64,000 nucleotides of DNA. Source: Octadecabacter sp. (lineage in GTDB: Bacteria; Pseudomonadota; Alphaproteobacteria; Rhodobacterales; Rhodobacteraceae). How positions within the stretch are numbered: position 1 is the first letter of the stretch; each line of letters starts with the position of its first letter. The DNA lies in contig JAPKAD010000011.1 in NCBI GenBank assembly GCA_028825445.1, positions 1-64,000 on the forward strand, written 5' to 3'. Positions 3,270-57,520 of this stretch are shown here, one piece after another. The translations under genes were made by a program, and so were the position numbers. Under the pieces are notes generated by a model. That model made no database searches. It was not told the DNA's origin and worked only from the letters and a program-made list of their open reading frames with translations.

Positions 3270-4088
3270 GTGTGGGCATCTATTAAAGAGACAATAAAAA
3301 CAGTAGTTTATGCGCTGCTGATAGCGGGAGTTTTCCGCACGTTCCTGTTCCAGCCATTCTGGATTCCATCAGGATCTATGAAGGAAACTCTGTTGATTGG
3401 AGATTTCCTGTTTGTGAACAAAATGGCATACGGTTATTCTTACGCTTCCTGCCCATCAATTGTCATCCCGCGATTCGGCGTCAACGTTGATGCGGAGGAC
3501 TTCTGTGGCGTGTTCAAGGGTGGTGATGAACGCCTGTTTGGCTCAGATCCTGAGCGCGGTGATGTCGTGGTATTTCGCCACCCTGTCACAGGCCGTGATT
3601 TTATCAAACGTGTGATTGGTTTGCCGGGAGATACGATTCAGATGCAAAATGGTATCATCTTGCTGAATGGTACTGAAATAGCGCAAGTCGATGCGGGTCT
3701 GTTCAGCGAAACGATGGAACAGCAAGGAAGCTTAGGAAACCTACCTCGCTGTACAAATGGTGCTGTGGGGCTTGGGGCTGAATGTCTTAAACAACGCTTC
3801 GTGGAAACATTGCCAAACGGTACTGAATATACGGTTCTGAATATTGGCAACAGAAACCTGGATACAACAGGAATCTTTACCGTCCCTGAAGGCCAATACT
3901 TTTTTATGGGTGATAACCGGGATAATTCATCAGACAGCCGCGTTCCGCAGATTTCTCGCGGTGTTGGTTTTGTACCATTGGAAGATATTGTTGGGCGAGC
4001 TGATCGCATCATGTTTTCATCTTCCGGTCGCTCGCTTTTGGCTTTTTGGACGTGGCGGTCAGACCGTTACTTCAAAGCTGTGGAATGA
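3270..4088 (+). CDS. lepB: Signal peptidase I
   Basis: [47 protein letters not shown] motifs; GTG start. Confidence 0.96.
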
Positions 4089-5750: not shown

Positions 5751-6079
5751 ACCCTCGCTTAACGGCCGAATTCTGGGTTTCTGCCTATCTGACAAGATTG
5801 AGGCTGGTTGATATCCCCGTATTTGTAGCTCGTAAGGGGGATAAAACAGCTGGGTCCGTTTTGGTGAAACTCAACACGCTTGATGGGCAGGCAAAGGCCT
5901 TTCAACGTCAATTTAACTTGATTTCAGGGGAACTTGAATGGATTGTTATGGCGGAAGGGGCTGAGGCAGACGTGGATGCATCGCTTTATAAACAGGCAGG
6001 ATTTGATCGTGACATTTGGGTGCTTGAGGTTGAAGATCGGGATGGCCGCCATTTGTTAGATGATCCTTCGCTTGCCTAA
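5747..6079 (+). CDS. DUF1491 family protein
   Basis: 110 aa between era and recO, a position usual for this family in Rhodobacterales; overlaps era by 4 bp. Confidence 0.75.
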   Translation: MNPRLTAEFWVSAYLTRLRLVDIPVFVARKGDKTAGSVLVKLNTLDGQAKAFQRQFNLISGELEWIVMAEGAEADVDASLYKQAGFDRDIWVLEVEDRDGRHLLDDPSLA

Positions 6080-6105
6080 GATCAGCTCTTGCCTAGACTA
6101 TACAA

Positions 6106-6834
6106 ATGATTGAATGGCGTGACGAAGGGGCTTTGATAAAGGTCCGCAAACATGGAGAATCCTCCGCTATAATTGAAGTGTTTACTGCTTCACGTGGCCT
6201 GACCGCCGGCATTGTCCGTGGCGGGACCAGCCGTAAGATTGCGCCAACATTACAGCCTGGTGCGCAGTTAGATGTCACGTGGAAAGCCCGACTTGAAGGT
6301 CACCTTGGCAGCTTCACCGTTGAACCTATCCGCAGCCGCACGGCTCAAGTCATGCAGGATCGACTTGCCCTTTCGGGTTTAAACGCTGTGATGGGGCTTT
6401 TATCTTTTTTGTTGCCAGATCGTGAAGTGCATTTGCCGCTTTATGCCCGCACAATCCAATTGCTCGATTTGCTTGGTCAAAACGATGTTTGGCCTTTGGC
6501 CTATCTACAATGGGAGGTCGCGTTGCTAGACGAGTTGGGGTTTGGAATGGACTTGTCAGCCTGCGCTGTGTCAGGCTTGAACGACGATTTATTTTATGTG
6601 TCGCCGCGCACAGGTCGCGCAGTGTCTCGATTAGCTGCGGGTGTATGGGCGGATCGGTTGCTTCCTCTGCCACATGTTTTGTTGGGCAAAGGTGATGCAA
6701 ATCTACATGAGATTGTAATTGCTTTGCGCACCACTGGGCATTTTCTTAACAATCATTTGGCACGATCACTTGGTGATCGCCCACTCCCTAACGCTCGTCA
6801 GCGATTAGTTGAAACGATGAAACGGTTGACCTAG
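6106..6834 (+). CDS. recO: DNA repair protein RecO
   Basis: [40 protein letters not shown]...; follows era. Confidence 0.93.
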
Positions 6835-42951: not shown

Positions 42952-43366
42952 GTTGTTGTATCAAATTTTTTGTGTCTATTTGATCAACGCATCTAAGGCA
43001 CCAATCGTTTCAAAAACTAAATAAATTGAGTCTAAATAAATTGTGCAGCGACTGTAATCTGCACGTTTAAAGCATGGGCTGTAAGCTAGACAAGCGAGGC
43101 GGTTAAAAGGGCCAGATACATCTTTTCGTTCAATAACTGTCTCGCCAATGTGCGGGGATACACTGTACCAAAACCATTATCCAATCACAGCTGTATTTAA
43201 CATTTTTCTGTATCCAAAGTTAGTTAATAATTTTTAAAAATCTGTCAAAATGCTGCCCTTCTGAATAACTTTGATGTGTATTTGGGAATGGCTGATACAG
43301 GTCGTTTATTCTCTTGCAGGTATTTTTATTGTAGTAACGCTCGTTAAGCTGTGGCAAATTAATTCA

Positions 43367-44269
43367 ATGATTTTGTCAGACAACATGCGCGCAGCGCTTA
43401 TGATGGCGCTGTCCATGGCGGCCTTCACTATCAACGACGCTTTGATGAAAGTCGCAGCGCCGAATCTTCCATTTTTCCAGCAGATTGTGCTTCGTGGTGT
43501 TATTATTACTTTTGGCTTGTTTGTTTTGGCGGCTTTTTGGGGTCATCTGGGATATAGGCCCAGTGGCAGAGACCGAGCCCTGACTGCTTTGAGAACATTG
43601 GCTGAAATATTTAGCACAATTTTCTTTCTAACGGCTTTGTTCAGTATTTCACTAGCTAATCTATCCGCCATTCTACAAGCCTTACCACTTACAGTGACTT
43701 TGGCTGCGGCAGTTTTTCAGGGTGAACACGTTGGGTGGCGCCGTCTTGTGGCAATTGGTATTGGTTTTATTGGGGTAACAATAATTATTCGCCCAGGAAT
43801 GGACGGCTTTAACGTCTATTCGCTCTATGGTGTGGCGGCAGTAATTGGAGTGACCTTCAGGGATCTCGCTGCGCGCAAGCTTTCTAAAACAATTCCTTCA
43901 AGTCGCGTGGCCCTTTCGGCGGCTCTTGGGGTTACAGTGATGGCTATCATCGGTTCACTGATGACGCGGGAACAGTGGGTCATGTTGTCTTTACGTGAAT
44001 GGTTGTTAATCGGTGGTGCTTCGATGTGCCTTATATGGGGCTATGTTGCCGCAGTCGCTGCCATGCGCCTTGGCGATATCGGGTTTGTTGCGCCGTTCCG
44101 TTACACTTCTTTACTTGTAGCGCTGTTTTTGGGCTACGTGCTGCTGGATGAATGGCCTGATGGTTGGACATTAATCGGGGCAGGAATCGTTATCGTCACT
44201 GGCCTGTTCACAATTTATCGCGAAGGTAAAAATGGTTCGATAATACCAACAAGTGTGCGTACTCGCTAG
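43367..44269 (+). CDS. DMT/EamA family transporter
   Basis: About 10 TM segments, duplicated EamA-like architecture; GFIGVTIIIRPGMDGFN; start chosen at 43367 within ORF 43271..44269. Confidence 0.85.
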   Translation: MILSDNMRAALMMALSMAAFTINDALMKVAAPNLPFFQQIVLRGVIITFGLFVLAAFWGHLGYRPSGRDRALTALRTLAEIFSTIFFLTALFSISLANLSAILQALPLTVTLAAAVFQGEHVGWRRLVAIGIGFIGVTIIIRPGMDGFNVYSLYGVAAVIGVTFRDLAARKLSKTIPSSRVALSAALGVTVMAIIGSLMTREQWVMLSLREWLLIGGASMCLIWGYVAAVAAMRLGDIGFVAPFRYTSLLVALFLGYVLLDEWPDGWTLIGAGIVIVTGLFTIYREGKNGSIIPTSVRTR

Positions 44270-50589: not shown

Positions 50590-50897
50590 ATAAGTCTGAA
50601 ACAACCACCAAAGCACAGCACTACGACGTAATTCGTAAGCCGATCATCACTGAGAAAGCAACTACCGCCTCTGAACATAATGCTGTGGTGTTCGAAGTTG
50701 CGATTGACGCTAACAAGCCAACTATCAAGGAGGCCGTTGAAAGCCTTTTTGGTGTAAAGGTGAAAGCAGTCAATACAACCATCACCAAAGGTAAGTCCAA
50801 GCGGTTTCGCGGTCAACTTGGTCGGCGTAAAGATGTCAAGAAAGCCTACGTTACGCTCGTTGAAGGCAATACAATCGACGTATCTACTGGTCTTTAA
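50586..50897 (+). CDS. rplW: 50S ribosomal protein L23
   Basis: [47 protein letters not shown]. Confidence 0.97.
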
Positions 50898-50938
50898 ATA
50901 TACATGTGACCTGCAAGTGATGCAGACATTTAAAAATT

Positions 50939-50977
50939 TAAAAAGGCTCTCACTGAGAAGTGAGGGCCTTTTTGAAT
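50939..50977 (+). terminator. Intrinsic terminator after rplW (inside the S10 cluster)
   Basis: aaaaaggctctcact-gagaagtgagggccttttt stem-loop with T-run. Confidence 0.85.
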
Positions 50978-51334
50978 TTTAGTGATTGGTTAAATTTTAA
51001 CTTTTTTTATTTTTCATAAAATAATGGTCCTGCAAATGTGGTCATTATTAATGGTTAATGTGTATTTTTATGAGGATAGTCGGTTTGTCATATCTCCGTC
51101 AAAAAGATCTTTTTGCCACTGCAAGCCTATTTTCAGCTATCAGCTAATTCGTTCAGGATTTTTTTGTTCAAAAGGCCTTTCGCAGCTTTTTTATGAACGT
51201 TTTATATCAAAAATAACTATTACTACGTTAACCTGTCTGAAATTTTTTTGGATAGTGGTTAGGCAATTACAAAAAAACATATCCTTTTGAATTAATGAAG
51301 ACCTCTTATAAGCTGTATTCCCGATTTCATGGTC

Positions 51335-51420: not shown

Positions 51421-51496
51421 CTAAGTCGGGCACCTACGGGGGCCTATAACATCAGGGCCCTAAGTTGGGTCCGCCAAGCAAACGGAAGTAGCAAAC

Positions 51497-53732: not shown

Positions 53733-54146
53733 ATGCTTCAGCCAAAACGCACTAAATTCCGTAAGCAGCATAAAGGCCGTATTAAGGGAGAAGCCAAAGG
53801 AGGCTCTGACCTGACATTCGGTACCTATGGCCTTAAAGCTACCCAACCAGAACGTGTGACAGCACGTCAGATCGAGGCAGCACGCCGCGCTATGACACGT
53901 CATATGAAACGTCAGGGTCGCGTTTGGATTCGAATTTTTCCAGATGTACCAGTGACTTCTAAACCAACAGAAGTTCGTATGGGTAAGGGTAAAGGTTCTG
54001 TCGATTATTGGGCATGTAAGGTCAAACCTGGCCGCATCATGTTTGAAATCGATGGCGTCAGCGAAGAAATTGCACGTGAGGCCCTTCGTCTTGCTGCAAT
54101 GAAATTGCCTGTTAAAACACGCACGGTACTTCGCGAAGATTGGTAA
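53733..54146 (+). CDS. rplP: 50S ribosomal protein L16
   Basis: [36 protein letters not shown]. Confidence 0.98.
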
Positions 54147-54219
54147 ATGTCCGTTTTTGAAGGTTCTAAAGAGTAGTTTTTAATTCTTGATTGAATTTTC
54201 ATACTTACTTACCAAATTT

Positions 54220-54257
54220 AAAAAACCTCCGTTGAGAAATCAGTGGGGGTTTTTTTT
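54220..54257 (+). terminator. Intrinsic terminator after rplP (inside the S10 cluster)
   Basis: aaaaaacctcc-N14-gggggtttttttt. Confidence 0.88.
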
Positions 54258-55450
54258 ATTTGAAACCGTCTTAAATTCTTCAGCCCTAAGAGAATTAGCT
54301 TCAAAGACTAGATAGTTTATTTTGAATTATACGATTACAAATGTTGTTTAAGCTAAGTTGTTATAAAATCGCTTGGCTACCCGTCAAATATGTAAATCCA
54401 AATTTCACCTAAGTCGGCTTACAACTCAGAAAACACAAATTTTATGCTTAAATTATTGTAACTGCTAAAAGCTAAATATAGCTGGAGAGTTGCAGCGTTT
54501 TTTTCGATGATTGTAATCCTATTTTCATTATATTTCTTAACATCACCTATTTCTGACCTTACGAAATAGGTGATGCTGCTGTTGACCCTAGGTGCTTAAT
54601 TTCTGGTGGCCAAGCTTAAGTTCTTACAATGGCTTCGTTGCGTTTTGTTGTAGATTGGACTGGTTACCATTTAAATGCTGGATTCCAAAAAACATTTTAG
54701 CTTAAATAACGTCACTTCACCCATTTATTTCTTTCGAAACTCAATATTGTTTAAATTGAAACGCAACTTACCGGGTAAGATCAGTCAAAACTGCGTAATT
54801 TCAGAATTTCAGAAGAGACTAAACTCGCCGTTGCCAGAGGCCACTCAAAAATTGTCGCATAACTGCCCTTTTGGCAGCTTCGCATCTTCAAGTAACATCC
54901 CCGCCGATGGGTTCCTATATGCTCAAGGTATAAAGTGTTTTTGCCATTAGCTAGTTTTTATGTACGCCCCATCGCAGACTTGGTGAAATCAGTTGATAGG
55001 GGCTTTAAGCATGGGACTGATTAGAAAAGTGTTCTATCCATTGTATGATAACGTCCAGTGTCTTCTGGGGTAGCAACAATTGGACGGGTTGCATCCGTGC
55101 AAAATGTTGGACGGCATCATAACTTGTTAACCTAGCTTCGGTGCGGTAAATAAACTCAGTAATCGATTGCTGATAAAGTGCTATTTAATTATTAGTGCAT
55201 CGGGAATATCGCCCCATGCAGTCCGGTAATGGAACGAAATACCCATCTGTTAATCTAAAGTAAAAAAAGTTTGTTCGGGTTCGGTAATAGTGAATTTAAT
55301 TAATATGGACCATCCTCGCACGGAATGACAATTCAAATCCCCTTTTATAAAATCAGAAGCATAAGTGGCATTTTTTATGCCATTGTGATTTTCTAGATTC
55401 AAGCGGTTGAGATTAATTTTTTGAACAAATATTTAATTACAAGCTTTAGG

Positions 55451-56059
55451 TTATTCCCAGCGGTAATTGAAACTTACGGAAATGCGGTCTTCCTCGGACA
55501 TGTTCATTGGAACCTCATGGCGCAGCCAGCTTTCCCACATCAGCACATCACCAACGACAGGTTTGATGTATACGAACTGCTTCATTTCATCACGTGCATC
55601 GGGTTTTCGGGCAGGGGCGGCCATCATCATTTGACTACGTGGATCCTCGAGTTTCAAAGCTGAAGTGCCTTTAGGCATTTTAACATAAGTAGTCCCGGAT
55701 ATTACGGAGTGGGGGTGAATGTGAGATGTATGTATCCCACCCTCGGGCAGTATGTTGATCCAAATGTCTTCCAGTACAAGTTTGCGTCCATCTAAATCAA
55801 AATCTAGATCGACAGCAAAATCAGAAACAAGTTTATCTAGTTTTTGAACTGCATCTCCAAAAATTGGAAACCGCCACGGCAGATCCGTGAGTGACGCGTA
55901 AGAAGTATAACCAGGGAAGTCATTGGCTTCACACCATTCATTGCCTGCATCATCATCTTCTGCAATAGAGTAACACGATGCACGGAGCTCATCTGCGTTG
56001 ATGGAACCTAGCGTGGCTTTGAAAAGACGAGTGGCAAAGAGGGAGCGGATGGTTTGCAT
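55451..56059 (-). CDS. Putative 2-oxoglutarate/Fe(II) oxygenase-like protein (TIGR02466-like)
   Basis: 202 aa; GGIHTSHIHPHSVISGTTYVKMPKGTSALKLEDPRS...GDVLMWESWLRHEVPMNMSEEDRISVSFNYRW. Confidence 0.75.
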   Translation of the reverse strand: MQTIRSLFATRLFKATLGSINADELRASCYSIAEDDDAGNEWCEANDFPGYTSYASLTDLPWRFPIFGDAVQKLDKLVSDFAVDLDFDLDGRKLVLEDIWINILPEGGIHTSHIHPHSVISGTTYVKMPKGTSALKLEDPRSQMMMAAPARKPDARDEMKQFVYIKPVVGDVLMWESWLRHEVPMNMSEEDRISVSFNYRWE

Positions 56060-56930
56060 TTTGATTGTGCCCTGGCTTGGTTATATTATAGTTTTGTTAT
56101 CTTGTTTTCTACCATTTCGAAAGTCTGACAAAGAAAATGTTAACTTTCTAAATTTCGTTGCAAGCAGTCTTGCGTTTACTTCAATTTATTTAATGATTTC
56201 TCAAATTTGGTGTAATTTCTTTCAGAAATTAAGGAAATATTACTGTCAGGATTATTTATTAAAATTGTATAACGTGGTGACATTGGTACCTATACTAAAG
56301 ATTTTTTGGTTAAATACGTCGTAAAATGGACCGTCGCCAATCCGATTAGTATTCGTGTGTAGCTGTTTAAAAGAGTACTTTTATTACGCTACAGCGGACT
56401 ATTACCCGAGGGCGACTTCACCCCATGAGCCGCTGTAAGTTGATTTCATAGATACTCATCGAGTATTAATTGGCAGTGCCTTTAAGTAATTAAGCTAACA
56501 TACTTTGTATAAACTCAGAGCCGTAAATAAATTGTCAAATAGTGCTAAGTCTGCGAAACTATAAATCACCTTAGAAGTGGCCATACGCGGATTATTAACT
56601 ATCTTGGTGTTCATTACGAACGCTTCACCGGTTTGCAATCGAGAAAAAAATTGTAAAATGATCACATTTACGAAGATGTCGAGGCTTACATAAAAGTCAG
56701 TCTTCATAAAAAGTGAATAAAGATTGTAAATGTGTCGTATTCAAAAAAGCCCTTCCAGAGTTCGTTGGTCTAGATAGCTATATTAATGGAATGTAGCTTT
56801 CTACGAATAATACAGCTTGCCGCCACCATCACAAAGGTGACGTTGTAAAAAATAGAGGACGGTGTTCTTACCCTACTCTAATCATCCATGAGATTTTATT
56901 AGTTGATTTTTCACTAATACAAACAGTTAT

Positions 56931-57000
56931 CTTCCCCGACTAACCCCCTTGCCACCCCCTCGTACCTCCCCTATACGACCAACTTCTACCTACTCCATCG
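56931..57000 (+). promoter_or_regulatory. C-rich, G-poor tract upstream of rpmC (rut-like)
   Basis: 36 C and 5 G in 70 nt (cttccccgactaacccccttgccaccccctcgtacctcccctatacgacc...). Confidence 0.35.
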
Positions 57001-57055
57001 GGAATCGAGTCACGCTTCTGCGGCTCTCCGGTGATGTTGACAAAGGAAAAGTCCA

Positions 57056-57289
57056 ATGGACGCTACTGAACTGCGCGGTAAAACGCCGGATCAACTCCGT
57101 GATGAGTTGTCCAACCTCAAGAAAGAAGCCTTTAACCTGCGTTTTCAGCAGGCGACTGGCACAATGGAGAACACAGCACGTATGCGCGTTGTTAAACGCT
57201 CAGCTGCACGTGTAAAAACCATTTTGAACGAAATGTCGGCTGCGGCTGCGTCGGACTCCACGTCCGCTAACGATAAAGCGGAGGCTTAA
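57056..57289 (+). CDS. rpmC: 50S ribosomal protein L29
   Basis: [57 protein letters not shown]. Confidence 0.97.
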
Positions 57290-57292
57290 TAG

Positions 57293-57520
57293 ATGCCCAA
57301 GCGTATCCTGACCGGTGTTGTTACAAGCAACCAGAACGAACAAACCGTCACCGTTTCTGTGGAACGTCGTTTCACACATCCGGTCCTGAAAAAGACCATT
57401 CGTAAGTCCAAAAAATATCGGGCTCATGATGAAGCCAACACAATCAAAGTCGGTGCCCAAGTCCGCATCCAAGAATGTGCGCCAAGGTCTAAAACCAAGC
57501 GCTGGGAAGTAATCGCTTAA
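57293..57520 (+). CDS. rpsQ: 30S ribosomal protein S17
   Basis: [47 protein letters not shown]. Confidence 0.98.

Follow-up and report, generated by a model that had tools for sequence, protein, structure and literature searches.

A gap between rplP and rpmC in the Rhodobacteraceae, its 2OG-Fe(II) oxygenase-like tenant and a candidate leader RNA

We propose that the 2OG-Fe(II) oxygenase-like gene found among the ribosomal protein genes of Octadecabacter sp. is a vertically inherited, functional gene that is parked in a break between the S10-type and spc-type units specific to its family, that it is expressed separately, and that it has no special tie to L16, a reading to which we give a probability of roughly 0.72. 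The gene lies in a window of 64,000 nucleotides (contig JAPKAD010000011.1), for which a first-pass annotation had raised the possibility, based on location, that the enzyme modifies a ribosomal protein. In the scenario that we favor, an ancestor of the Rhodobacteraceae would have opened a gap between rplP and rpmC, and the S10 and spc transcription units would have been uncoupled, with a terminator following rplP and then, ahead of rpmC, a new promoter and leader RNA. This gap would have tolerated insertions, with the oxygenase staying while other genes came and went, and the oxygenase, probably transcribed apart from the ribosomal units, would have switched strand there a dozen times or more.

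The oxygenase-like gene and its surroundings in Octadecabacter

The gene (55451-56059, minus strand) is an intact open reading frame of 202 amino acids with an ATG start, as first annotated, and it is the only copy in the Octadecabacter sp. genome. It occupies a 2909 bp interval between the end of rplP (uL16; 53733-54146, plus strand), which closes the S10-type unit upstream, and the start of rpmC (uL29; 57056-57289, plus strand), the first gene of the downstream unit. The description of its flanks as AT-rich, non-coding DNA stands as far as composition and gene content are concerned, given that the GC content of the interval is 33-46% as compared with around 50% in the flanking genes, and that the small ORFs on both sides have no Pfam match, but the flanks are not featureless, as they hold a predicted terminator, a predicted promoter, and a structured RNA. 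The two spacers in the strict sense (54256-55450 and 56060-56948) contain no recognizable gene and are not conserved in relatives; comparison with Octadecabacter relatives shows conservation only in the oxygenase gene and in the last 100 nt or so of the interval.

The putative intrinsic terminator (54220-54255, plus strand), with a 16-pair stem and a T tail, starts 74 nt after rplP, and terminator-like hairpins occur at most 260 nt from rplP in 73 of 83 oxygenase-bearing intervals. At the other end, we find a predicted promoter of the rpmC (spc-type) unit, TTGCCA-N17-TATACG (56949-56977, plus strand), followed by a covarying RNA leader (56992-57045, plus strand). The promoter pattern recurs 13-16 nt 5′ of the leader in most genera, and promoter scores reached at least 10 in 57 of 101 loci, compared with 6 of 101 after shuffling. 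Given the terminator after rplP and the promoter and leader before rpmC, the S10-type and spc-type units would be separate transcripts here, as far as can be judged from these sequence signals.

Regarding the identity of the protein, the profile search agrees with the initial assignment to the TIGR02466 type rather than the JmjC type. The NCBIfam profile TIGR02466 matches with an E value of 3e-83 and 278.5 bits (cut-off 62.5) over the full length of the model (residues 5-201 on model positions 1-200), and the Pfam profile PF13759 (2OG-FeII_Oxy_5) matches with an E value of 9e-37 and 125.9 bits (cut-off 27). The nearest named relatives are from Octadecabacter, at no more than 85% identity, and two uncharacterized solved structures are close to it, namely 3bvc from Roseovarius nubinhibens (Ism_01780; 73% identity) and 2rg4 from Oceanicola granulosus (70% identity), both with a TM score of around 0.95. 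A literature search on TIGR02466, on 2RG4/3BVC, and on the rplP-rpmC split returned no functional description and nothing on the genomic place.

Beyond the TIGR02466 family, a structure search with the predicted model (pLDDT 93) found prolyl hydroxylases as the best solved folds. These matches (4j25, 4iw3, 6t8m, and PHD2) have TM scores of 0.5-0.6 at only 11-16% identity, and they include the EF-Tu-bound P4H of Pseudomonas putida (4iw3) and a Dictyostelium PHD. In an alignment of 35 homologues, H113, H115, P116, H181, and R192 are invariant, giving an H-x-H-P motif, a distal His, and a distal Arg, and a cyanophage homologue also has the motif, as HSHP. PPHD/PHD-type prolyl hydroxylases, although perhaps alike in fold, have H-x-D where this family has H-x-H; aligned to the PHD motif, the carboxylate ligand of the canonical HxD/E...H triad is absent and replaced by His in 35 of 35 sequences. 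The best reading is a TIGR02466-subfamily enzyme of the Fe(II)/2-oxoglutarate type, with a double-stranded beta-helix probably resembling that of prolyl hydroxylases, in which H113-x-H115, H181, and R192 would form the metal and 2-oxoglutarate site. Such a protein would presumably be catalytic, though the replacement of HxD by HxH tells against taking its activity for granted.

Conservation and strand changes within the family

The oxygenase gene is present in 176 of 249 genomes of the family searched, which we take to be the Rhodobacteraceae. We compared around 19 kb surrounding it in 100 genera, a non-random set chosen from a ranked match list while avoiding contig ends, and the gene was inside the rplP-rpmC interval in 83 of these 100 genera, all of which carry it, so that its place beside rplP is indeed conserved. 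In the remaining 17, it had only one ribosomal flank in 11 (the interval exceeds the fetched stretch or a contig ends there), a rearranged setting in 2, and no ribosomal neighborhood in 4, while an overlapping set of named genera gave 36 of 48 inside the interval. Two loci (L035 and L160) have the ribosomal cluster broken and rearranged at the interval itself, and the oxygenase remains with one half. One Litoreibacter genome (L248) seems to have the oxygenase twice in the rplP-rpmC interval (3446-3821 and 6001-6603 of that locus), the additional copy being diverged. Two contigs labeled as a Saprospiraceae MAG (L281 and L285) encode an oxygenase that is 65-66% identical and are probably misbinned Rhodobacteraceae.

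Outside the family, the picture is different. The distance from rplP to rpsQ (uS17; 57293-57520, plus strand, in the window), which we used as an anchor for comparisons across families, is 3.1 kb in the window but 166-392 bp in 55 of 55 other alphaproteobacterial families; this leaves room for little but rpmC, and the gap is thus a trait of the Rhodobacteraceae. Furthermore, a check for twelve ribosomal genes up to about 9 kb from 20 close homologues outside the family (38-64% identical) found none beside any of the 20, which also have no neighbor gene in common. The proposition that homologues lie mostly outside ribosomal clusters, originally put forward as grounds for discarding a ribosomal role, is therefore borne out in part, by the homologues beyond the family.

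Of the 83 oxygenase genes inside the interval, 42 run in the direction of the operon and 41 run against it. Mapped on a tree of nine ribosomal proteins, this distribution requires at least 17 strand changes, at least 12 of which are forced by supported branches. Replacement of the gene by copies of other origin does not account for these changes, as the oxygenase tree, which is poorly resolved, needs 18 changes against the 17 of the ribosomal tree, and an inversion switch was also rejected, there being no flanking inverted repeats beyond chance. The other genes of the interval turn over, with none recurring in more than 10 of 98 intervals. By eye, the extra genes found beside the constant oxygenase (intervals L032-L167) include those for an ion channel, a Fic/Doc-like protein, a thioesterase, and a chemoreceptor, among others. 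We consider the interval to be an insertion-tolerant site. That the oxygenase has flipped at least 12 times in place without relocating, in contrast to the turnover of all other cargo, might point to some selection on its location.

In genera lacking the oxygenase, the interval is closed to 40-503 bp in 13 of 15 cases. These include four nested losses (L110, L111, L112, and L116), located well inside the gene-bearing clade and with intervals of 96-252 bp; as the gap has closed in each of these four independent losses, its persistence elsewhere may depend on the enzyme. In two of them (L111 and L112), the rpmC promoter and leader are absent as well and the interval of around 100 bp contains a strong hairpin, which suggests that the S10 and spc units have been rejoined.

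A candidate leader RNA before rpmC

An unexpected additional result was the structured RNA immediately upstream of rpmC. Its main element is a 6-pair stem present in about 100 of 107 family loci, as picked by an automatic procedure that accepted at least one spurious locus (L086) and missed one real locus (L124). The stem occurs in variants such as CACCGG/CCGGTG, CACCAG/CTGGTG, CACTGG/CCAGTG, and CATCAG/CTGATG, among others, and it is accompanied by a covarying inner stem of 3 pairs and by an apical stem. In 58 leader sequences, 98.7% of the cells hold standard pairs, against 86.6% after shuffling, and double-sided changes were observed in 80 cells, against 19.4 expected from the shuffles, while sliding the stem partners lowers pairing to 34-62%. 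A model of the leader scores 47-66 bits in family genomes, including 58 bits in a genome outside the training set (G458), and nothing above 26 bits was found elsewhere in the class. Since the leader is also present in 10 of 15 genera without the oxygenase, the two are not coupled.

In Rfam 15, the only match to the leader was a 13-bit chance match. For Alphaproteobacteria, a survey of ribosomal leaders published in 2020 names those of rplB and L17 and nothing 5′ of rpmC, and ours is not among its 20 leaders (PMC7247131). The closest parallels are ribosomal protein leaders such as the L2-Alphaproteobacteria leader (RF03142), which is likewise a short covarying structure just 5′ of a ribosomal protein unit, but which differs in structure and in the gene concerned, rplB. 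RF03142 is itself found in the window (51428-51494, before rplB), preceded by an AT-rich gap of 530 bp after rplW, and the S10 unit may also be divided there; Thr_leader matches at 50860-51007 are weak and under the gathering score. From its position and covariation, we consider the rpmC leader a candidate for binding by a ribosomal protein that would regulate the unit.

Possible roles of the enzyme

The most likely target of the oxygenase is a protein or a small molecule without a special tie to L16. One possibility is a hydroxylase of small molecules, or of general metabolism, that came to its place by historical accident. This would agree with the wide distribution of the TIGR02466 family in Alphaproteobacteria, where the neighbors vary and a genome can have as many as 7 copies. 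Nevertheless, no pathway neighbor was found, and the PHD-like fold hints at protein substrates, so we regard a strictly metabolic role as possible but rather doubtful, and a soluble 2OG-type hydroxylase acting on a protein as more likely than one acting on a metabolite.

The idea that attracted attention to this gene was that it could modify a ribosomal protein; in a more specific form, it would hydroxylate uL16 or some other such protein and stand in for YcfD in the Rhodobacteraceae. YcfD hydroxylates a uL16 arginine in E. coli and has dimerization and winged-helix domains (PMC4295552). YcfD/RoxA (JmjC_2, PF08007) and our protein both belong to the 2OG-oxygenase superfamily, but the latter is a single domain of 202 amino acids with neither of those additional domains and no match to JmjC_2/PF08007. 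The conserved place and the presence of the target arginine (Arg82, in VRMGKGKG, equivalent to E. coli Arg81) would both fit such a role, as would the scarcity of YcfD itself: no more than 4 of 151 family genomes have a PF08007 match above the cut-off, and there is none in the Octadecabacter sp. genome, where a sub-threshold match broken by a stop disappeared in a larger search. As 147 of 151 family genomes lack YcfD-type proteins, the alternative that a YcfD homologue elsewhere in the genome accounts for L16 hydroxylation does not apply.

Several observations nonetheless weigh against a ribosomal target. The arginine is present in 107 of 108 aligned uL16 sequences (the other has a gap), with or without the oxygenase, and no residue in nine ribosomal proteins that correlates with presence of the oxygenase survives 8 independent contrasts, which is a weak test. 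The oxygenase is no operon partner, since every second genus has it running against the operon, and its close homologues outside the family are away from ribosomal genes. As a base-rate control, we looked at an EamA-family transporter gene, unrelated to the oxygenase, that lies between rpoC and rpsL-rpsG-fusA in the window (43271-44269). It has stayed at most 8 kb from fusA, and never on the other strand, in 34 of 39 genera with an ortholog-grade copy, a fraction that is approximate because the cut (44% identity) was set after viewing the list, and 3 of the 5 exceptions are contig breaks. Given that an unrelated gene is kept equally well, where a gene sits in this cluster says little about its function. 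Thus, we find no support for an action on ribosomal proteins, L16 included, and we consider the replacement of YcfD by this enzyme quite improbable. Just as improbable, in our view, is its broader form, in which a new class of translation-machinery hydroxylases with a three-histidine metal site replaced YcfD in the Rhodobacteraceae and the place kept through repeated inversions reflects function.

Other components of the translation machinery are also hydroxylated, as OGFOD1 acts on uS12. Likewise, PPHD hydroxylates EF-Tu (PMC7864055), and a prolyl hydroxylase of translation factors would be in line with the fold matches, among them the EF-Tu complex and the Dictyostelium enzyme. Yet the identity is low and the TM scores are modest, the fold is common to many 2OG oxygenases, and HxH stands where HxD is expected, so this role seems slightly less probable still. 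Finally, cargo of a mobile element or a phage remnant in an insertion hotspot might explain the diverse extra genes, the variable strand, and the phage homologues found in 251 records, but these homologues are less than 30% identical in the best rows, flanking inverted repeats are missing, and a single conserved occupant is present family-wide, making this the least probable of the explanations.

We therefore return to a functional oxygenase parked in a break of the cluster, a case that illustrates how position beside ribosomal genes can mislead, with a neighboring transporter retained equally well. Across the Rhodobacteraceae, a bacterial gene cluster that is otherwise among the best conserved is interrupted, with a single constant tenant that is found in either orientation, and in this abundant marine family the rpmC leader is a candidate for a new RNA through which the spc genes would be autoregulated.
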